35,098 bases of DNA from a virus, in IMG/VR virus record IMGVR_UViG_3300033145_002414, positions 1 to 35,098 of that record, one strand, 5' to 3'. The position numbers and the translations under genes are program-made. A model generated the notes under the pieces. It was not told the DNA's origin, ran no database searches, and was given only the letters and a program-made list of their open reading frames with translations. Shown here piece after piece: positions 4,825-25,792 of the stretch. Numbering within the stretch: the first letter of the stretch is position 1; every line of letters begins with the position of its first letter.

Positions 4825-4853
4825 TTGACATTAAATATATTTCTTGTTATACT
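4825..4853 (+). promoter_or_regulatory. Near-consensus sigma-70 promoter reading into attP region
   Basis: TTGACA (4825-4830), a 17-base spacer and TATACT (4848-4853), one mismatch from consensus. It points right, away from the late operon, into a stretch without protein genes that holds the half tRNA and a terminator. The block TGTTATACTTTA recurs near 6175 without a good -35 box. Confidence 0.75.
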
Positions 4854-4886
4854 TTAACTGTTTATATCAAAAATTAGCAAAATAAG

Positions 4887-4906
4887 TGTAGCTAAATTGT
4901 AGCTAC
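4887..4906. repeat. Candidate integrase arm-type site, left copy
   Basis: TGTAGCTAAATTGTAGCT here resembles TGTAGCTAAAATTGTAACT at 5097-5115, one on each side of the half tRNA. Paired repeats flanking a core are what tyrosine integrases bind with their N-terminal arm domain. Inferred from symmetry only. Confidence 0.4.
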
Positions 4907-4972
4907 TGCTTTATTAATCTTTATAAATCATTAAGTATTTTGTAAATCTTTAAGTTTGCTATTTTTTAGCAT

Positions 4973-4987
4973 TTTATCGACGATAAA
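4973..4987. promoter_or_regulatory. 15-bp perfect palindrome (TTTATCG-A-CGATAAA)
   Basis: A perfect inverted repeat with a one-base centre lies 20 bases before the half tRNA. Symmetry like this suggests a dimeric DNA-binding protein, such as an excisionase, a repressor or a host factor. It does not match the TCTAATT operators of the repressor. Confidence 0.45.
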
Positions 4988-5006
4988 TTAGTTATTGACG
5001 GTATCC

Positions 5007-5044
5007 GGGCCGATAGTTCAGTCGGGAGAACGCCTGGTTCGCAA
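5007..5044 (+). other. attP: 5' half of a tRNA-Ala(CGC); probable attP core
   Basis: Bases 5007-5044 read as a textbook tRNA 5' half: acceptor strand GGGCCGA, TA, D-arm GTTC/GAAC with loop AGTCGGGA (A14, G18, G19, A21 in place), base 26, anticodon strand CCTGG and loop TTCGCAA (U33, anticodon CGC = alanine). After position 38 the sequence stops matching any tRNA: the expected CCAGG is TAATT and there is no T-arm. The break falls exactly at the anticodon loop, a common crossover point for tyrosine integrases, and the integrase gene is next door. I read it as attP carrying host identity on the 5' side of the tRNA. Confidence 0.72.
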
Positions 5045-5052
5045 TAATTTGC

Positions 5053-5090
5053 AAAAAGACGCAAGTATTTGGAATTACTTGTGTTTTATT
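5053..5090. terminator. Bidirectional hairpin terminator
   Basis: A 12-bp stem (5056-5067 with 5076-5087, including two G-U pairs) and an 8-base loop are flanked by an A run on the left and a T-rich run (TTTTATTTTT) on the right. It could end the rightward transcript from 4825 and the leftward integrase transcript. Confidence 0.6.
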
Positions 5091-5096
5091 TTTATA

Positions 5097-5120
5097 TGTA
5101 GCTAAAATTGTAACTAAAGC
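5097..5120. repeat. Candidate integrase arm-type site, right copy
   Basis: TGTAGCTAAAATTGTAACT partner of the 4887 repeat, overlapping the 3' end of the integrase gene. Together they bracket the proposed attP core at similar distances (about 100 and 55 bases). Confidence 0.35.
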
Positions 5121-6115
5121 TTATTTATCTCTTTGTCAGAAGAAGGGGCTAAATGAGCATAAGTTTGAAAGGTTATGCGAGGATCAGAATGACCTAACCA
5201 TTTAGCTATTTTTAAAAGACTCACTCCTCTCATAGCCAACCTGGAAGCAAAAGTTCTGCGAAGGTCATGCCAACCAACATTTTTAAGATTAGCTTCCTCT
5301 AAAATTGTTTTAAAAGATTTTCTTGGCGGATATCTCCATTTTTTACCTTCATTGGTAAAACACCAACCGGTGTTTTTTCTATGTGGTTTAAGAATGCTTT
5401 TGAGTTTATTGTTTAAGGGAATAATGCGAAATTTTTTTGATTTAGGACTAAAACTATCTTTATTGATTATTCTAATAATGTTTTTCTCAAAGTCTATATC
5501 ATTCCATTCTAAATACATCAATTCTTTTACTCTTAAGCCAGCATAAATAGCAGTTGCAATCATTGGATATAAATAACTACCTTTTGCTGTATCTAATAAA
5601 CTCTCAACCTGCTCATCATTTAAGAATACTGGTGGATTTTTGGGTAATCTAAATTTCTTTATTTTAGTTGCTGGGTTATCAATAATATATCCTTGCCTTT
5701 TAGCCCAATTAAGCCAAGTCTTTATGCTTCCAATTATATGATTGGCTGTATTATGGCCTATGGGGGTATTTTCAAGGCGGTAGTTAATGTAATCTTCAAT
5801 TGTTTTAAGTTTGATTTGATCTACTTTTTGAACCTTACTATATTTTAAAAAAGCCTGTATTCTGCTTTTATCATCTTTTAAGGTTCGCAGGGTTTTCTGA
5901 TGTTTTGTAGCTTTTGCATATTCATCAAGGCAATCTTGGGCAGATACATTTTCGGGGGGAAGAGGAGAGCGTCTTTCAGCAAGTTCTATCTCTTTTTGAT
6001 TTTTATAGTAAGTGGCTACCTTTTTATCTTTAGTCTTTAGGCTTTTACAGTAAGGTTTACCGTTTTGATAATACTTGATCCACCAAATATTACCGCGTTT
6101 ATAAATTGAGGCCAT
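5114..6115 (-). CDS. int: Tyrosine recombinase integrase
   Basis: 333 residues, leftward. N-terminal AP2-like arm-binding part (about 1-50, IYKRGNIWWIKYYQNGK), SAM-like core-binding domain (about 55-150) and catalytic domain. All active-site residues are seen: R195 (AGLRVKEL), Lys in the SPKSKK hairpin (225-228), H283 and R286 (HDLRR), H309 (WLGHSD) and nucleophile Y319 (TYAHL). It should catalyse integration and excision between attP and the host tRNA. The gene ends 70 bases from the half tRNA, the normal int-attP arrangement. The ribosome binding site is weak. A palindrome at 6145-6158 lies just upstream and may regulate it. Confidence 0.95.
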   Translation of the reverse strand: MASIYKRGNIWWIKYYQNGKPYCKSLKTKDKKVATYYKNQKEIELAERRSPLPPENVSAQDCLDEYAKATKHQKTLRTLKDDKSRIQAFLKYSKVQKVDQIKLKTIEDYINYRLENTPIGHNTANHIIGSIKTWLNWAKRQGYIIDNPATKIKKFRLPKNPPVFLNDEQVESLLDTAKGSYLYPMIATAIYAGLRVKELMYLEWNDIDFEKNIIRIINKDSFSPKSKKFRIIPLNNKLKSILKPHRKNTGWCFTNEGKKWRYPPRKSFKTILEEANLKNVGWHDLRRTFASRLAMRGVSLLKIAKWLGHSDPRITFQTYAHLAPSSDKEINKL

Positions 6116-6267: not shown

Positions 6268-6877
6268 TTATTCATTTACCTTCTTAATCGTTATACTAAC
6301 CTGTCCACCCATAGCGAAGATAGCGATTAAATAAGTATTGCCAAGTCTATCCTTATAAATAAAAGTATTAAATTTACCTTTTAGTTCAAAATCACCTTTT
6401 TTAAGTTTAGTAGTCCTTTGCAGATAAAATATAAGATTTTCTTTAATCTTGGGTCTTTCTTTTTTTGAGATATTGTCTGAAAAAGAAATAAATAGATCTA
6501 TATTGTTTTATATTATTATTAACGCGAATAACCATTGATTTACCTGTTTGATTATAAAATGCTTTAGCATAAAAATCTGCCATTGCCTGTGGATTGGATT
6601 CTAAAGGTGAAACTTCAATGATTATAGAAAATGGCCTATTATCAATTACCTTTTTAGCCCGAGTTGAGCTAACGACCCATTCCATAAATTGCTTAACTTT
6701 TTGATTTTCTTCGGCAATCTGTTTTTGTTCCTGAATGATTTGTTCTTCAGTTTTTGGGGGCTTAACAGGTTGCGACTGTTTCCGTTTAGGTTTTTGCTCA
6801 GTAAAGAAAATAAGGAAGATGAAAACCACAAGAAAAAAAAGCAATATTGGTAAGCAGCCGGTTCGGCTTTTCACCAT
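6268..6877 (-). pseudogene. Membrane-anchored protein co-transcribed with repressor, frameshifted
   Basis: The intact reading frame is 6443-6877 (144 residues): a positive N-terminus, one membrane segment (about 9-26, LPILLFFLVVFIFLIFF), a Lys/Gln/Pro-rich linker and a globular part. It ends in a low-quality run (YFFFRQYLKKRKTQD). The +1 frame is open from 6507 to a stop at 6268 with protein-like sequence (IDLFISFSDNISKKERPK ... FAMGGQVSITIKKVNE) and no start codon, so the original product was probably about 215 residues. A one-base change lies between 6508 and 6450, which includes a seven-A run. It overlaps the repressor gene by 7 bases on the same strand, so it is expressed in the lysogen. 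The family is not recognised; superinfection exclusion is a guess from position. Confidence 0.6.
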
Positions 6878-7461
6878 AATACCCCCTTTACCACTCCTCT
6901 TAATTTAATATCATTCTTTTTGGTATAAATTTGTTCTTTATATTTGGGATTGGCGGGTCTTAAAACAACAGTATTGCCATATTGGTAAAATTTCTTAATA
7001 GTATATTCATTATCAACTTTAGCAACTACAATATCGCCATTAACTGGTTGAGCATCAGCATCAACAATTACAAGAGAATAAGGTTTAATGCCTGCATCAA
7101 TCATACTATCGCCTTGAGCATGTATTAAATAAATTCTTCTATTCTTTACTATTTTATCAGGCAGGGGGATCCAATCTTCAACTTCATCTTGTGTCCATTC
7201 TTTAGGCCCGGCAGGAGCAGTACCAAGGATGGGAACATTAATTAAGTTTTTAGGAATGATTGCAGGTAAGTCAGCAAAAAGTTCTGCTTCTGAAATATCA
7301 AATACTTCACAGAGTTTTTTTCGCTGAGCCGAGCGAGGTTCTGCTTCATTATTCTCCCATTTAGAGATTATTTGAAAACTACAACCTAATTTCGCAGCTA
7401 ATTCTTGCTGAGTTAAACCTGCTTTCTGTCTTAATTCTTTTATTTTTTTACCGATGTTCAT
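6871..7461 (-). CDS. CI/LexA-type lysogeny repressor (HTH + S24 peptidase)
   Basis: 196 residues. HTH_XRE DNA-binding domain at 4-58 (LTQQELAAKLGCSFQIISKWE) and a C-terminal S24 LexA-like autopeptidase. The Ala84-Gly85 cleavage bond (TAPAG), Ser119 (GDSM) and Lys156 (YTIK) are in place; Ser119 and Lys156 carry the same numbers as in E. coli LexA. It should hold the phage dormant and be cut on RecA activation after DNA damage. Divergent from the Cro-like gene, with a promoter at 7522-7550 and operator repeats between. Overlaps a membrane protein gene downstream. Confidence 0.95.
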   Translation of the reverse strand: MNIGKKIKELRQKAGLTQQELAAKLGCSFQIISKWENNEAEPRSAQRKKLCEVFDISEAELFADLPAIIPKNLINVPILGTAPAGPKEWTQDEVEDWIPLPDKIVKNRRIYLIHAQGDSMIDAGIKPYSLVIVDADAQPVNGDIVVAKVDNEYTIKKFYQYGNTVVLRPANPKYKEQIYTKKNDIKLRGVVKGVLW

Positions 7462-7622: not shown

Positions 7623-7650
7623 TTGACAATTCTAATTTATATGATATAAT
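7623..7650 (+). promoter_or_regulatory. Early rightward promoter, full consensus boxes
   Basis: TTGACA (7623-7628), 16 bases, TATAAT (7645-7650). Both boxes match sigma-70 consensus exactly. The spacer contains TCTAATTTATATGAT, a partial operator match. It drives the Cro-like gene and the early operon. Confidence 0.85.
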
Positions 7651-7730: not shown

Positions 7731-7955
7731 ATGATAAAAGTAAATGAGACACTCAGAAGATGGCTGGAAATCAGAAACTGGTCCAATAGAGAACTGGCAG
7801 AAGCAATCGGCTATGATGAAGGAGCTATATCAAAAGTTATCAACGGAAAGAAAGAGCCATCTAAACAATTAATGAAAAAATTAATGGACCTTACCGGATT
7901 AGATTTTGGAAGAGAAAGTCTTTTTGTTTACGAAAGGAAAAACGGAGTGAGTTAA
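7731..7955 (+). CDS. Cro-like HTH regulator
   Basis: 74 residues. HTH_XRE fold over most of the length, with the recognition region AEAIGYDEGAISKVINGKKEPS (split here as AEAIGYDEG / AISKVINGK). It is the first gene of the rightward early operon, divergent from the repressor and preceded by operator repeats, so it most likely represses the repressor promoter and commits to lytic growth. AAAAAGGAA precedes the ATG. Stop and next start overlap by one base. Confidence 0.85.
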   Translation: MIKVNETLRRWLEIRNWSNRELAEAIGYDEGAISKVINGKKEPSKQLMKKLMDLTGLDFGRESLFVYERKNGVS

Positions 7956-8359
7956 TGTCCCGGCCTACTAAAAATAAAAAAATAAAAATCGATGAGCTTC
8001 TAGAAGCTATGTGTTTTTATAATCGGTTCATTGAAAGTGTAGATGAAATTTTAAAAGGTTTAGATGCTAATGAACAAAAGGATCATGCCAACGATTCTAT
8101 CCGCAATGAGGTTATGGAAGTAATCATCGATGCCATGAAGGATAACGCTGCCGGTGCAAAAAACCTTGTCGATAGAAATCTTAACGTAGCACATCAGCGC
8201 TTAAAAGAACAGGAGCGCCAAGACCTAGAAGACGACATACCCCGCCTTGAGGCCCGCAATAACTTAATCAAATTGAGAAACAAAGCAGTAAATTTAATGA
8301 ATAATTTAAGAGAATCCATTAAAAAACTGGAGTCTAAGGATGCCGACAAAAACAAATAG
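7955..8359 (+). CDS. Early protein of unknown function, helical
   Basis: 134 residues, starting on the last base of the Cro-like gene. It is predicted fully helical and charged, with heptad-like patterns near 85-130 suggesting a coiled coil. No motif is recognised. It overlaps the next gene by 20 bases. Its place between two DNA-binding proteins suggests an early regulatory or host-takeover role, but nothing in the sequence states it. Confidence 0.6.
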   Translation: MSRPTKNKKIKIDELLEAMCFYNRFIESVDEILKGLDANEQKDHANDSIRNEVMEVIIDAMKDNAAGAKNLVDRNLNVAHQRLKEQERQDLEDDIPRLEARNNLIKLRNKAVNLMNNLRESIKKLESKDADKNK

Positions 8360-8549
8360 ATTATTAACTGTAAAAGAACTTGCCGAATACCTGCATTGTT
8401 CGCCAGCTACTATCTGGCAGAATTGGACTAAATGGAGAGATAAATACAATCTAACCGTTATAAGAATAAATGGCAATGAAGGCGGAAAGGCAAGCTTGCG
8501 GTTTAAAAAAAGTGAAATAGATAAAATGCTTGAATCGTGGCAGATATAG
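8340..8549 (+). CDS. Excisionase-family small HTH protein
   Basis: 69 residues with the MerR/HTH_17 excisionase pattern: LLTVKELAEYLHCSPATIW (about 7-26) as helix-turn-helix, a wing and the terminal RFKKSEIDKMLES helix. Proteins like this bend attachment-site DNA to direct excision (Xis/AlpA) or act as small regulators. As the phage has an integrase and no other clear Xis, this is the leading candidate, with the RDF-like gene at 10111 as alternative. Overlaps the preceding gene. Confidence 0.65.
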   Translation: MPTKTNRLLTVKELAEYLHCSPATIWQNWTKWRDKYNLTVIRINGNEGGKASLRFKKSEIDKMLESWQI

Positions 8550-8560
8550 GGGGTGGTTAA

Positions 8561-8779
8561 ATGTTCATAAATAAGAAAGCAGTAAAGAGATATCTTAAAG
8601 ATTATCGCAAAAGAACCTCAAAGGATTTTTTAATAGCTTTAAACGGCCGGATTAAAGAAATTCTGGACAAAGCAATTCTGGCCAGCAATAGCAAGCGAAC
8701 TGTATTAGAAAGAGATTTGAATTACATTCAGATAAAACAGGGGGTTGACCCTGTAAAAAAAAGATTGGAGGGTAAGTAA
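8561..8779 (+). CDS. Small early protein, unknown
   Basis: 72 residues, highly basic (many Lys/Arg), helical. GGGGG-containing ribosome binding site. No family recognised. The basic charge would suit nucleic-acid binding. It shares its final A with the next gene's ATG. Confidence 0.55.
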   Translation: MFINKKAVKRYLKDYRKRTSKDFLIALNGRIKEILDKAILASNSKRTVLERDLNYIQIKQGVDPVKKRLEGK

Positions 8780-8973
8780 TGATAGAAAAAATGATTATTA
8801 TTACAGCATTTATTTTGTATGGTCTTTTTTTCGCAGGTGGCATTGCTTGGGAAGTCATTAGAAGAAAGAAAGCTGAATTAGACGACGAATTAAGACAGAA
8901 AGAAATTGACAGGGATGTTGGAAGATTAAGAGCAGGAGAGGGTTTAAATAGGGGCTGGGTGCAAAACGCTTAA
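8779..8973 (+). CDS. Small single-pass membrane protein
   Basis: 64 residues: one hydrophobic segment (about 5-24, IIITAFILYGLFFAGGIAWE) then a charged cytoplasmic-type tail (RRKKAELDDELRQKE). Translationally coupled to the preceding gene (TAATG). Function unknown. Confidence 0.55.
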   Translation: MIEKMIIITAFILYGLFFAGGIAWEVIRRKKAELDDELRQKEIDRDVGRLRAGEGLNRGWVQNA

Positions 8974-9026: not shown

Positions 9027-10118
9027 ATGTTAGATTTAGCCAAAAATATAGAAGAATTAGTATTAAAAGAAAATAAAGAACGTAGTAAATATCGCAATGG
9101 ACCAAGAGACCATTTTTGGGCGAGTGATGTTTATAAATGCAAAAGACAGCTTTTTTATGAATTCAAAGACGTACCTAAAAAGGATTTAGATGCCAGAGCA
9201 TTATTAATCTTCAAGGCAGGAGATGCCTTTCATGATTTGATTAAAAATTATCTCTGGCGGACTGGTGTTTTAAGACAGGAAGAAGCAAGGCTTCCTGAAA
9301 CTGCAAGAGAAGAACTTAATCTTACCGGGCGCTTTGATGCGATGGTTTCAACGACTCCCGAAGGTGAACGTGAATTAGTAGAAATCAAATCCATCAGCCA
9401 TTTTGGCTTTGAGGATATGGCAGAACCAAAAGAGGAATGGGTGGGTCAACTAACTATATATATGCACTATCTGAATGTTAAAAAGGGCATTATTTTTGCA
9501 GTCAATAAAAATACATCTCAGATGAAGCAATTTGAGGTGCCTTATAGCGAAAAAGAATTCAAAAAGGTAGTTAAGTATTTTAAGAATGTTGAAAAATATA
9601 TCAAAAAGGATAAAGAGCCAAAGCGTCCTTATGCAAGAGACAGCTGGCAGTGCAGATATTGTAAATTCAACAAACATTGTTGGCGTGATTGTCCACTGCC
9701 TGAACCACCAGAATTAAAAATTGATGAATCAGTTGAACCGCCGAGCCAAGAAGTACTTGAATCTGCCATTTCAATCTATGGCTATCTTGATGCAGAAATA
9801 AAAAAGCTTACATCTGAATATAAAGCGGCCAAGCAAATTATTGAGTGCTACTTTAAGACCAATAAAGAAAAGATTGTCTCTGGCGACAAATACGTAATAG
9901 AGCGGATTCAAAGACAGAATGTTTACTACAATGCAGAAAAACTGCTTAAGAAATTAGGCCCTGAAATATACGCAATCGTATCCAAGCCCCAATCTACCTT
10001 GATCAAACAGGCTCTTAAAGAGAATAAGATTGACCCAACAGCAGTAGAGAAATCTAAAGAATATAAATTTACTGAAGTTTTAAAAGTAAAGAAAAAGGAA
10101 GGTGAAGAAAATGATTAA
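9027..10118 (+). CDS. PD-(D/E)XK nuclease with Fe-S cysteines (Cas4/RecB-like)
   Basis: 363 residues. Cas4/RecB-type nuclease signatures in order: C38 (YKCKRQ), H69 (GDAFHD), D104 (GRFDAM), E119-I-K121, the QxxxY motif Q141/Y145, and the C-terminal cysteines C209, C212, C218 (CRYCKFNKHC), which with C38 should hold an Fe-S cluster. The C-terminal 130 residues are helical and extend beyond Cas4. It probably degrades DNA ends in phage recombination or replication, since the next gene has an annealing-protein-like tail. AAAAAGGAG ribosome binding site. No CRISPR array is present, so it is not an adaptation gene here. Confidence 0.85.
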   Translation: MLDLAKNIEELVLKENKERSKYRNGPRDHFWASDVYKCKRQLFYEFKDVPKKDLDARALLIFKAGDAFHDLIKNYLWRTGVLRQEEARLPETAREELNLTGRFDAMVSTTPEGERELVEIKSISHFGFEDMAEPKEEWVGQLTIYMHYLNVKKGIIFAVNKNTSQMKQFEVPYSEKEFKKVVKYFKNVEKYIKKDKEPKRPYARDSWQCRYCKFNKHCWRDCPLPEPPELKIDESVEPPSQEVLESAISIYGYLDAEIKKLTSEYKAAKQIIECYFKTNKEKIVSGDKYVIERIQRQNVYYNAEKLLKKLGPEIYAIVSKPQSTLIKQALKENKIDPTAVEKSKEYKFTEVLKVKKKEGEEND

Positions 10119-11175
10119 AGGTCTTAGTGAAATTCGCAGGTGTCCACGTTTAGGTCATATCAGGTTAGGCATTAAAAAGATTCATCCTAAATCAAAAAAA
10201 GAATATCCAGTTGAAGTTGATTATTTTATTCTAGATCCACAGACTCCTGATGCGAGACGCAACAAGGAATTAAAAGAGCAGTTCAAAGAAGCTTATGGCG
10301 AAAAACCCGCCCATATAAAAATAATGTTTCCACCAACAGTTCCAGAAATCTTTTTTGCACAATGGTATAAGCGTTATGGTAGTGGCACATTGCTTAAATG
10401 TAAAGGCGATGGCGAGACCGCCATCTGTTCTTTGCCTGAATTTGCTGAAGGATTAGAAGTCATAGGAAAAGACGAAATGGGACTTACTAAGGTAAAGTGC
10501 TTAGGCCCAGAATGTCCATATCAGAAAGATAGATCGTGTCATAGGCTTGCGTCTTTACAGGTATTGCTTCCAGATATATCAGGCGTTGGGGTATGGCAGA
10601 TAAATACCAGTAGCTGGAATTCTATTGTAAACATCAATTCTGCTTTGGATTGGCTTAATGGTCTTTGTGGAAGATTTGCTATGATTCCAATGACACTTAT
10701 GAGGGTGCCAACAGATATACCATATGAAGGCAAAAGGTCAAAGCATTATGTTTTGCAGATAGACCGGAATGTTAAATTGGCCGAAATCCAAAAGGCAGCT
10801 TTAATTGCACCCGAAAAGATAGCTTTACCCGAGCCAGATGAGTCTAAAGACGCTTTGTTTTACGACCAGAATGGAATTCAAGAAAAAAAAGAAGGCAAGA
10901 AAGAGATAGAGCAAGAATTCCAAGAAGAGACAAAGGAAAATATAAAAAAGGCAGAAGAGAAGAAAGAACGGCCGAAGAAAAAGAATTTTGCTACAGAAAA
11001 ACAAAGAGATGCAATTTTAAAGCTGTTCAGGAAAATAGGTTTTGAAGATAGAGATATTGTCTTCAAGGTCGGCGAAATTGTAGGCAAAAACACAGAAGGC
11101 AAGAAATTAGTTGAAGTAATGCAGGAATTAACATCTGACGAGGCAGATTCTTTGATAATGGAATTACAGAAATAA
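10111..11175 (+). CDS. Recombination-directionality-factor-like / DNA metabolism protein
   Basis: 354 residues from ATG 10111, with AAGGAAGG upstream; a GTG at 10102 is possible. The N-terminal ~240 residues resemble the gp3/RDF-like phage family, with a putative metal-binding set (RRCPRLGH near 10-17, C95, C104, then KCLGPECPYQKDRSCH near 130-146). A Glu/Lys-rich linker (about 255-295) follows, and then a small C-terminal domain (ATEKQRDAILKLFRKIG ... LTSDEADSLIMEL) also found at the ends of phage RecT and SSB-like proteins. It overlaps the nuclease gene by 8 bases, suggesting joint action in DNA recombination or replication. Whether it controls integrase direction is open, as such factors are best known with serine integrases. 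Confidence 0.6.
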   Translation: MIKGLSEIRRCPRLGHIRLGIKKIHPKSKKEYPVEVDYFILDPQTPDARRNKELKEQFKEAYGEKPAHIKIMFPPTVPEIFFAQWYKRYGSGTLLKCKGDGETAICSLPEFAEGLEVIGKDEMGLTKVKCLGPECPYQKDRSCHRLASLQVLLPDISGVGVWQINTSSWNSIVNINSALDWLNGLCGRFAMIPMTLMRVPTDIPYEGKRSKHYVLQIDRNVKLAEIQKAALIAPEKIALPEPDESKDALFYDQNGIQEKKEGKKEIEQEFQEETKENIKKAEEKKERPKKKNFATEKQRDAILKLFRKIGFEDRDIVFKVGEIVGKNTEGKKLVEVMQELTSDEADSLIMELQK

Positions 11176-16571: not shown

Positions 16572-16609
16572 ATGCATTTCGGGGGTGCGACCATGAAATG
16601 TAGATGCAT
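16572..16609. other. GC-rich nested dyad, candidate cos or translation-control hairpin
   Basis: ATGCAT ends (16572-16577, 16604-16609), then CATTTC/GAAATG (16575-16580/16595-16600) and GGT/ACC around GCG form nested symmetry around GGGGGTGCGACC. A GC-rich dyad in an AT-rich genome before the packaging genes resembles a cosN site. It also covers the start of gene 16604, so an mRNA hairpin is the alternative. Confidence 0.35.
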
Positions 16610-17911
16610 CTTGAAAAATTCAAAATCGATCTCATCAAAACTGACTCTTATAACCCTCGCCAGCTTACAGAAAAGCAAGCTTGTGATTTAGAAGAAAGTA
16701 TAAAACGATTTGGTTTAGTTGATCCTTTGATAATTAATAAGTATCCCGGTCGAGAGAATGTTTTAATTGGTGGACACCAACGTTTAAAGATTCTTCAGAA
16801 GTTAGGCTATAAGGAAGTCGACTGTGTCTGTGTCAAGGTGGATCCGGAAAAAGAAAGGGAACTGAATATAAGACTCAATAAGAACCTTGGTGAATGGGAT
16901 TACGATCTACTGGCTAATTTTGATGAAGATTTATTAAAAGATGTGGGATTCAGCTCGGAAGAGCTGGATAAGATCTTTGATATAAAGTTAGAACCCATTG
17001 AAAACTTTGACCTGAAAGAAGAATTGAAAAAATTAAAAATCGATAAAGTCCAAACCAAAAAAGGTGACATTTACCAACTGGGTGATCATCGGCTAATGTG
17101 CGGCGATGCAAGTAAGAAAGAAGATATTCAAAAGCTTATGGGTGGCGAAAAAGCTGATTTTTGCTTTACTGATCCGCCTTATATTCTGGATTATTTAAGT
17201 AAAAAATACAAAGGCAAACCGGCCACCGAAGGATTCGGCTACCGGGCCAACAGAAAATATTTAGAAACCGATGAGGCTTTGACTTTTGATAAATGGCTGC
17301 CGAATATTAAAAAGATCGCTAAAGAGAATTTTAATATTATGGTTTTTGAGAATTGGAAAAATATTATCCCTCTCTGGCAGGAAATGGAAAAATGCTGGAA
17401 GATCAGAAATTTAATCATTTGGCATTTGCCTAATCGCTGTCAGGGATTTGCGGCTAAATATAGATTTTTTAATAAGTACGATATTGCCTTACTGGCAACT
17501 GATGATGAGGTCGAACTTAATCTGAAAGATGAAGATCAACTTTTACAGAATGAATATGAAGTTGCTCTTTATGCAACCCAGGGTAAGCCTCAATGGGAAG
17601 GTTATAAAAAAGGCAATAAATACTGTCCGACCGACGTTGTCAGTTTTAAAGCAAGCGATGCAACCTCATCCGGACAAAGCATTATTTTTGGCACAAAGCC
17701 AGTTGAGATATTAATACCATATTTGAAGGTTTTAAGTAAAAGGGAAGCAAACATAATTGAGCCGTTTGGGGGATCGGGTTCAACTTTAATAGCATGCGAG
17801 AAGATGAAAAGAAAATGTTTTTGTTTAGAATTGGTACCGACTTATTGTGAAGTAATTATCAGCCGGTGGCAGAAACTAACCGGTAAAAAAGCGGAGAAGA
17901 TAAATGGCTAA
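16604..17911 (+). CDS. ParB-like domain fused to beta-class DNA methyltransferase
   Basis: 435 residues. N-terminal ParB/Srx-like domain (1-95) with GGHQR at 56-60 and a linker, then a methyltransferase with motif IV DPPY (190-193) before the SAM-binding motif I EPFGGSGS (386-393), the order of beta-class N4-cytosine/N6-adenine enzymes. It probably methylates phage DNA against host restriction; no restriction partner is nearby, so it is an orphan. The ATG at 16604 has no clear ribosome binding site and lies in a hairpin. It overlaps terS by 8 bases, opening the packaging operon, a common phage order. Confidence 0.9.
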   Translation: MHLEKFKIDLIKTDSYNPRQLTEKQACDLEESIKRFGLVDPLIINKYPGRENVLIGGHQRLKILQKLGYKEVDCVCVKVDPEKERELNIRLNKNLGEWDYDLLANFDEDLLKDVGFSSEELDKIFDIKLEPIENFDLKEELKKLKIDKVQTKKGDIYQLGDHRLMCGDASKKEDIQKLMGGEKADFCFTDPPYILDYLSKKYKGKPATEGFGYRANRKYLETDEALTFDKWLPNIKKIAKENFNIMVFENWKNIIPLWQEMEKCWKIRNLIIWHLPNRCQGFAAKYRFFNKYDIALLATDDEVELNLKDEDQLLQNEYEVALYATQGKPQWEGYKKGNKYCPTDVVSFKASDATSSGQSIIFGTKPVEILIPYLKVLSKREANIIEPFGGSGSTLIACEKMKRKCFCLELVPTYCEVIISRWQKLTGKKAEKING

Positions 17912-23917: not shown

Positions 23918-25204
23918 ATGGGCGAAGTAATTTTGATGTCAGATTTGGATTTTCCTAAAAAGAAGAAAGAAACTTCTTTTAAAATTTCAATCTGGGATGT
24001 GATCAAGTTAGAGGATCGTTATCTTTACAAAGTTTTACCAGATGGCATTTGGAAAGATAGAAGATGTTTTATTGTTGGTGGCGGTCCGAGCCTAAAAGGT
24101 TTTAATTTTTCTTTACTTAAAGGAGAATTGACAATTGGCATAAATCGGGCTTTTGAAAAATTTGACCCCACTATTATTTTTTCAATGGATAGTCGCTTTT
24201 GGACATGGGTTGAAGAGGGAAAGTTTGGCAAGGAAGTAACAGAAAAATTTCATAAATATAAAGGGTTTAAAGTTTGGCTTAATACTTTTGGCTTTCCATA
24301 TCCAGAGGATATTTATCTTTTGAACAGCGCCACTGGAGCAGAGGAAGCATTAACTTTTTCAATGAAAGAAGGATTGGGTCATGGAAATAATTCTGGTTAT
24401 GCTGCCTTAAATTTAGCTATCTGCTTGGGTGCTAACCCGATATATCTTCTCGGATTTGACATGAAGGGTGATAATGGCAAACAAAAATGGTGGCATGATG
24501 GATATCCACAACAACAAAATGAAGATGTCTATAAAGATTTCAAATCTAATTTTGAAAAAGCTGCACCAAAAATAAAAGAAGCTGGATTTAAAGTAATAAA
24601 TCTTAATCCTGATAGTGCTTTGAGATGTTTTGAATTTGGAGAATTTGAGGATATTAAACCGATTAAAAGACCCCTTATTGTTTCTTACTATACAAAAAAT
24701 ACAGGTTATGAAAAGGAAGCCAAAAGATTAGAAGAATCAATAAAAAAATTTGGCTTGGAATATGACATAGAAGAAATTGAAAGTTTAGGGGATTGGCAGA
24801 AGAATACCCACTATAAAGCGACCTTTATTAGGAAGATGATGGATAGGCATCCAAACAGAGATTTATTATGGCTAGATGTCGACGCAGTAGTCCATAGATA
24901 TCCTATTTTATTTGACGATATAGATACAGATTTGGCAATTCATTATAAAGATGGAAAGGAATTATTGAGCGGAACCCTGTATTTTTCTAACAATGAAAGA
25001 ATTAAAAAATTAGTGGATGCTTGGATAGAGGAAAACAAGAAAAACCCTGACATATGGGAACAGAAGAATTTAGCAACGACGCTGAAAAATTGGAATGGAA
25101 AAGTTGAGATTTTGCCACCTACTTATTGTCAGATATTCGATCTTATGATGAATGCAGGTGAACCTATAATAGAGCATTTTCAAGCAAGTAGAAGGTATAA
25201 ATAA
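23918..25204 (+). CDS. DUF115-like domain fused to glycosyltransferase-like domain
   Basis: 428 residues. Residues about 45-245 form a Rossmann-like unit of the DUF115/MptE-like or sialyltransferase-like type: FIVGGGPSL (51-59), a core TIGINRAF, GNNSGYAALNLA (156-167) and LLGFDM. Residues about 250-428 look like a GT-A glycosyltransferase with a DxD metal motif, LLWLDVDAVVHRYP (DVD 320-322), and a final EHFQASRRYK. It probably transfers sugar to a protein or surface polymer in the cytoplasm. It follows the capsid gene, away from normal structural order, and is paired with a methyltransferase and exported proteins. Confidence 0.7.
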   Translation: MGEVILMSDLDFPKKKKETSFKISIWDVIKLEDRYLYKVLPDGIWKDRRCFIVGGGPSLKGFNFSLLKGELTIGINRAFEKFDPTIIFSMDSRFWTWVEEGKFGKEVTEKFHKYKGFKVWLNTFGFPYPEDIYLLNSATGAEEALTFSMKEGLGHGNNSGYAALNLAICLGANPIYLLGFDMKGDNGKQKWWHDGYPQQQNEDVYKDFKSNFEKAAPKIKEAGFKVINLNPDSALRCFEFGEFEDIKPIKRPLIVSYYTKNTGYEKEAKRLEESIKKFGLEYDIEEIESLGDWQKNTHYKATFIRKMMDRHPNRDLLWLDVDAVVHRYPILFDDIDTDLAIHYKDGKELLSGTLYFSNNERIKKLVDAWIEENKKNPDIWEQKNLATTLKNWNGKVEILPPTYCQIFDLMMNAGEPIIEHFQASRRYK

Positions 25205-25792
25205 ATGCCATCGAGTATGCACCAAAATATATCGATGATGGTGGAAGAGATAATTAGGACAAATCCTAAAACTATCTTGGATATTGGAATAGGGTTTGGC
25301 AAATACGGTTTTTTAGCGAGGGAATTTTTAGAGACCCATTATGATAAAGTTTATCCTGAGCAGTGGAAAGTAAAGATTGACGGTGTAGAAATATGGGATA
25401 GGTATGTTGAAAAATTTTGCTGGCTTAAGAAATTCTATAATCAAGTTTATATTGGTGATATTTGTGATTTAGTAGATAAATTGGGCGATTATGAACTTAT
25501 TATTGCTGGAGATGTAATAGAACATATTGAAAAGAAAAAAGCAACCATATTACTTGGAAAACTTTTAAATAAGTCAATTAAGAAATTTTTACTTTCAATC
25601 CCTTTAGGTGATTGGACAGGAAATATGATAGCGGATAATAACCCTTATGAGAAACATTTATCAATTTGGAGTGCAAAAGAACTTATTGCTTTATTGGATA
25701 AGCCGATTAAGACATACAGATTTAAAGGTACAAGAGGGAATGTGGGAGTATTTATTTACGAAAAGCGGGATAAATGTTATGAAAAAAATTAA
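25205..25792 (+). CDS. SAM-dependent methyltransferase (class I)
   Basis: 195 residues. Rossmann methyltransferase signs: TILDIGIGFGKYGFLAREFL (17-36, SAM-binding motif I), GVEIWDRY as acidic strand-end motif, and LIIAGDVIEHIEKKKA (motif IV region). C-terminal part KHLSIWSAKEL typical of small-molecule or sugar methyltransferases. Probably acts with the preceding glycosyltransferase, which ends two bases before this ATG. Substrate unknown. It overlaps the next gene by 14 bases. Confidence 0.8.
   Translation: MPSSMHQNISMMVEEIIRTNPKTILDIGIGFGKYGFLAREFLETHYDKVYPEQWKVKIDGVEIWDRYVEKFCWLKKFYNQVYIGDICDLVDKLGDYELIIAGDVIEHIEKKKATILLGKLLNKSIKKFLLSIPLGDWTGNMIADNNPYEKHLSIWSAKELIALLDKPIKTYRFKGTRGNVGVFIYEKRDKCYEKN

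Follow-up and report, generated by a model that had tools for sequence, protein, structure and literature searches.

A candidate attP with its own promoter for rebuilding tRNA-Ala(CGC) from the 5' side in a temperate phage of Omnitrophota

A probable phage attachment site that would supply the first half of tRNA-Ala(CGC)

We identified a region that is very probably the attP of a temperate Omnitrophota phage, at which integration in the anticodon loop would rebuild a host tRNA-Ala(CGC) gene that is then read from a phage promoter at 4825-4853. The window, meaning the whole stretch of DNA analysed here, is a linear virus record of 35,098 bases with a G+C content of 35.6%. In the proposed mechanism, recombination by the integrase between attP and the anticodon loop of the host tRNA-Ala(CGC) gene would strand the host 5' half and its native promoter beside the integrase gene (int) and join the host 3' half to the phage 5' half as a whole tRNA gene; these steps are seen in relatives, and we infer them for the window phage. 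The restored gene, deprived of its native promoter, would be transcribed from 4825-4853, which in the lysogen would face outwards from the prophage, towards the restored host tRNA, and the 5' end of the transcript would be trimmed by RNase P. A hairpin at 5056-5087 would stop stray transcription before it reaches int. The attP would thereby act as a portable cassette that holds the 5' part of a tRNA gene and a promoter for it.

Profile searches revealed an integrase, a CI-like repressor, a large terminase and head genes, all encoded in the window, which, judged by this gene content, is a temperate tailed phage. The repressor (6871-7461, minus strand), with domain matches to a CI/LexA-like helix-turn-helix and an S24 peptidase, marks the phage as temperate. 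The record looks as though it starts inside the apparent 3' end of a tail tape-measure gene and finishes in tail genes; as both ends lie in the tail/tape-measure region, most of the genome, cut there, is present. Relatives found through terminase and capsid genes are mostly fragments without an integrase, the single integrase-bearing one being L032. The window also encodes an N6/N4 DNA methylase fused to a ParB-like N-terminal domain (16604-17911) and, between the capsid and tail-fibre-like genes (23918-25792), a methyltransferase-like protein and a 428-aa protein that by eye resembles glycosyl- or nucleotidyl-transferases.

The attP core and its match in Omnitrophota

The sequence GGGCCGATAGTTCAGTCGGGAGAACGCCTGGTTCGCAA at 5007-5044 corresponds to positions 1-38 of tRNA-Ala(CGC), and its last base is the end of the 7-nt anticodon loop (5038-5044), the probable overlap region. 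The host match extends one base further (T, 5045), giving an attP core at 5007-5045 on the plus strand (tRNA positions 1-39; Omnitrophota tRNA matches and ARAGORN). The best host match, an Omnitrophota tRNA-Ala(CGC), covers 38/39 bases rather than 39/39 because tRNA position 17 in the D-loop (window 5023) is C in the phage and T in the hosts. The half had been described beforehand as perfect: it does end on the last anticodon-loop base, but is near-perfect against known hosts, and the host tRNA-Ala(CGC) that it was expected to match exists in Omnitrophota with that one D-loop base differing. Such a host tRNA fragment, in attP and beside int, is what a phage that integrates into tRNA genes carries.

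The exact half had no match in viral contigs or in about 85,000 genomes, and this search found no lysogen of the window phage itself. A relaxed pattern returned five matches, on five contigs, among 84,980 species (257 Gb); all were in Omnitrophota and all were intact tRNA-Ala(CGC) genes, so that chance can be dismissed. Allowing up to three mismatches, the half was present in 28 of 384 sampled Omnitrophota genomes, and each half-matching locus scanned with ARAGORN holds an intact tRNA-Ala(CGC). When the window half was joined to each of three Omnitrophota 3' halves, ARAGORN recognized a complete tRNA-Ala(CGC), which the phage sequence alone does not yield. At G403:C47 (L060/L082), two tRNA-Ala(CGC) copies (19587 and 19795) lie 208 bp apart. 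The first has a break in the T-arm region, and the pair would represent either what is left of an earlier insertion or a partial duplication.

Prophage junctions in related elements

Three prophages in Omnitrophota genomes lie between a displaced 5' half of the host tRNA, next to int, and an intact tRNA at the opposite end; the target is tRNA-Met in G158 and G394 and tRNA-Arg(TCG) in G419. Each intact tRNA is preceded by phage DNA with a promoter and followed by host DNA, whereas host DNA lies upstream of the displaced halves; the 5' half of the working gene is therefore the phage's. In G158, a 43.2 kb prophage encoding terminase, head-tail and tail proteins has both ends on one contig. Read along the tRNA, rpoD and a displaced 5' tRNA-Met half (50272-50235) come first, then int and about 43 kb of phage DNA, and finally a promoter ahead of the intact tRNA-Met (from 7051), with tRNA-Val and a zinc-ribbon gene beyond it. 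The unoccupied site is seen in other genomes of this taxonomic order, G401, G358, G173 and G120, where rpoD, tRNA-Met and the zinc-ribbon gene are adjacent.

The ends of the G394 prophage are on two contigs: dnaG and rpoD adjoin the displaced tRNA-Met half, while phage genes and a promoter precede the restored tRNA-Met, which is followed by host tRNA-Val. The displaced and restored halves differ by three mismatches, all 5' of the crossover. In G419, the displaced tRNA-Arg(TCG) half follows a host radical-SAM gene and faces int, and the restored tRNA-Arg, located on another contig, is preceded by phage genes and a 12/12 promoter, with one mismatch between the two halves. Contigs of metagenome-assembled genomes may hold assembly errors, but a single contig holds both junctions of G158, and three genomes share the architecture, at two loci. 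The preliminary description had proposed that integration cuts the host tRNA from its own promoter and that phage and host halves rebuild one tRNA. The displaced host halves bear out the first proposal, and the restored tRNAs, together with the joined tRNA-Ala(CGC) above, the second; the junctions that it predicted are found in these three related prophages, none of them the window phage's own.

Free phages and a D-loop group

The same design occurs in free phages. Viral contig L144 carries an attP with a tRNA-Arg(ACG) 5' half that ends after the anticodon loop, and in L142, L145, L032 (=L216) and L209 the tRNA sequence consists of the first 21-23 bases of tRNA-Phe and stops at the D-loop. Two integrated relatives of L145, namely L200 and L207, align with it up to tRNA base 21; past this base, L200 continues into a whole tRNA-Phe and L145 into the int-side arm, which places the phage/host boundary at the D-loop. 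A search for the tRNA-Met pattern in viral contigs gave no match, the pattern having demanded one D-loop base too many.

A conserved promoter upstream of the half

The predicted promoter at 4825-4853 (plus strand) is of the extended -10 sigma-70 type, TTGACA-17-TATACT with TG at -15/-14, and matches 11 of 12 consensus positions. Placed after the last late gene, it is aimed through the tRNA half from about 150 bp upstream. Among promoter-like sites on both strands of the whole 35 kb it ranks second, behind one at 7623 that precedes a cro-like gene, and 500 dinucleotide shuffles of the upstream 300 bp all scored below it. All nine attP members scored have a predicted promoter 150-250 bp upstream of the half. 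In the first seven it is an extended -10 promoter with TG, 152-231 bp upstream; L032 also has an extended -10 promoter there, and the best site of L209 is without TG in the scored register. Individual scores in the relatives are modest. Compared with other 300-bp segments of the same loci, each of the nine members gives a P value of 0.002-0.044, and the combined P value of about 1e-8 is rough and indicative only, since the segments overlap and some members are related. The near-consensus promoter reported earlier is thus present, and its position is conserved.

An alternative that shares the attachment site with our reading holds that the restored tRNA is not expressed from the promoter at 4825 and would instead be read through from late genes, be covered by another copy, or be dispensable. 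Some room for dispensability exists, as a tRNA with a UGC anticodon may partly cover CGC-Ala by wobble. Late genes, on the other hand, should be off in the lysogen, and int lies on the opposite strand, facing the half, so that its own promoter cannot serve the restored tRNA. The position of the promoter is, moreover, conserved across nine diverged attPs and four tRNA types. We therefore consider this alternative unlikely, and a dedicated phage promoter would be the simplest way of expressing the restored tRNA. The promoter could also have another role, for example in setting the direction of recombination.

The integrase and switching between 5' and 3' modes

The integrase (5114-6115, minus strand; 333 aa) is convergent with the tRNA half and matches PF00589 (5.6e-28) and phrog_1 (7.4e-65). 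It has the R...HxxR...H...Y catalytic domain of tyrosine recombinases, and the catalytic-type residues R195, H283, R286, H309 and Y319 are invariant in the alignment of homologues. Its matches in named phages are distant only (at most 28% identity). As a lone query it had no match among viral contigs, but an alignment that includes the Omnitrophota homologues does find viral-contig integrases. Its two nearest homologues in the Omnitrophota sample (46% and 44% identity) each have, just past the int stop, a convergent 5' tRNA-Met half that ends after the anticodon loop.

Integrases with the 5' mode group together on the tree more than shuffled labels do: four changes of mode are required, and only 5 of 500 shuffles gave a number as low. 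They do not form one clade, and the idea of a single 5'-mode clade was accordingly rejected. The homologous integrases of L115, L116, L118 and L121 adjoin an intact tRNA whose 3' end faces int. These loci, and a tree that mixes the modes, are what could be said for ordinary 3'-mode integration in the window, in which the half would be a displaced scar and the intact tRNA would form on the int side. The window half lacks any 3' part, and no matching tRNA 3' half was found elsewhere in the window. Late genes lie to the left of the half and the integrase to the right, and phage genes on both sides identify an attP, not a scar. The best-matching integrases with mapped junctions (G394, G158 and G419) also use the 5' mode, and we regard the 3' mode as very improbable here.

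L115 is the nearest relative of the L145 integrase, and L145 uses the 5' mode, likewise on tRNA-Phe; the mode may thus have switched between the two, L115 having an apparent 3' mode, without a change of target tRNA. The enzyme appears to need only the overlap and core sites, and the side that carries extra tRNA sequence would be changeable. Such interchange among close integrases bears on why the 3' mode dominates elsewhere. With somewhat more confidence than doubt, we propose that Omnitrophota phages share a modular attP cassette with a promoter, retargeted among Ala, Met, Arg and Phe tRNAs and among loops, with repeated 5'/3' switches.

Several neighbouring loci were recorded alongside. At L115 (G173:C22), the intact tRNA-Phe (8749-8823, plus strand) is on the int side and int is on the minus strand. 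At L121 (G177:C29), a 16-nt copy of the tRNA-Gly start (TTTTGCGGGAGTAGTT) lies upstream of an intact tRNA-Gly (9706-9776, minus strand), beside the integrase. Another integrase type (25-28% identity) is located upstream of, and co-directed with, an intact tRNA-Met, as in L192 (G450:C1; int 9993-10973, tRNA-Met 9870, minus strand), L191 (G450:C27; 6417) and L196 (G432:C12; int 7914-8867, tRNA-Met 7755, minus strand), and in G450 a displaced 5' half is still beside rpoD. The G450 and G432 integrases look like a second 5'-mode type, in which the transcript of int itself could serve the tRNA, as in pTN3.

A further explanation is that the host tRNA is destroyed and complemented by a separate, complete phage tRNA, as in the tRNA-dependent lysogeny of mycobacteriophage Fionnbharth, in which the phage encodes an entire tRNA and the host gene is not restored at the junction (PMC10865867). 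There, too, the phage supplies tRNA sequence together with a promoter for it (PMC10865867). Here, ARAGORN found no complete tRNA gene, of the disrupted isotype or any other, in the 35,098 bases of the window (the tape-measure region of the genome is missing), and the shared core of 39 bp rebuilds the tRNA, whereas that of Fionnbharth is about 10 bp and does not. This explanation is hardly credible for the window.

Arm-type sites, a shared motif and a hairpin

Paired repeats flanking a core are the usual layout of arm-type integrase sites in attPs of the lambda type. On the left of the core, a putative P-arm (4887-4905, plus strand) consists of two direct copies of TGTAGCTA, 11 bp apart, and its equivalents in relatives are specific to the integrase: TGTAGTGATT in G158, TATGTTTAAA/TATGTTCA in G394 and GTGTGAATAAAA in G419. 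On the right, TGTAGCTAAA and TGTAACTAAA, 12 bp apart, form a putative P'-arm (5097-5118, plus strand). Sequence comparison further detected the motif CGACGATAAA between the P-arm and the core (4978-4987, plus strand), with similar motifs at the same place in L142, L145, L209 and L032 and variants in L144, G158 and G394; it may be bound by a directionality factor or by a factor of the host.

The terminator-like hairpin (5056-5087, plus strand), of 12 pairs with a T-rich tail, lies between the core and the P'-arm. A hairpin with a T tract after the core is clear in the window and in L145; none was clear after the core in G394, G158, G419 or L144. As it is clear in only some members, the terminator is not an essential part of attP, and its place in the core design, for which L145 offers the only clear counterpart, was dropped. 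The hairpin terminator of the preliminary description is thus present but not conserved, and we view it as an accessory element that would prevent a truncated tRNA transcript from running antisense into int. A tRNA-fragment RNA or decoy with no role in integration would also be transcribed on the free phage and end in a hairpin, but the position of the half beside int, the paired repeats flanking it and the direct junctions in relatives leave that idea a negligible probability.

Comparison with known systems

With almost all tRNA-integrating elements described so far, the tRNA stays under its native promoter, and integration is therefore silent for the host. Under the 5' mode, the tRNA of the lysogen would depend on the phage promoter, and the phage would therefore control host tRNA expression while resident. 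The 5' mode, described earlier as unusual, is indeed rare but not unprecedented. Islander reported 3,760 of 3,919 islands with a displaced 3' fragment and 159 of 3,919 with a 5' fragment (PMC4383910), and pTN3-like archaeal integrases also use the 5' half, the tRNA then being read from the integrase promoter, a mode seldom encountered in bacteria (PMC8371274, a 2021 review).

The common 3' mode shares with the window the enzyme family, the anticodon-loop crossover and the restoration of the tRNA, and is its mirror image, in that the restored tRNA keeps its native promoter and 5' half. The Islander 5'-fragment islands have in common with the window a tyrosine integrase, a tRNA target, an anticodon-centred crossover, an element-supplied 5' part, and ends marked by a displaced 5' fragment and an intact tRNA. 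In contrast to these islands, the promoter is here a conserved part of attP, the hosts are Omnitrophota, and a sub-group breaks in the D-loop; the crossover sub-sites of Islander are the anticodon loop, the T loop and the T/acceptor junction, with none in the D-loop (PMC4383910). The pTN3-like elements share an attP with a 5' tRNA half and a restored tRNA separated from its original promoter, as described in Thermococcus (PMC8371274, PMC5495485). Their attachment site falls within the integrase gene, so that integration splits that gene (the SSV type), whereas here int, which ends at 5114, is intact and convergent, the core (5007-5045) is outside it, and the promoter is separate, int being on the strand opposite to the restored tRNA. 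With mycobacteriophage tRNA-dependent lysogeny, the window phage shares a lysogen that would depend on phage tRNA sequence and promoter, and differs in that the former uses a whole tRNA and no rebuilt gene.

The principle of the 5' mode is thus known and rare, and what differs here is the separate conserved promoter, the intact convergent integrase and the D-loop sub-group, for which a literature search of partial coverage found no description. Together, these attPs with mapped junctions in an uncultured phylum offer a compact, testable set and add a D-loop sub-site to those known.
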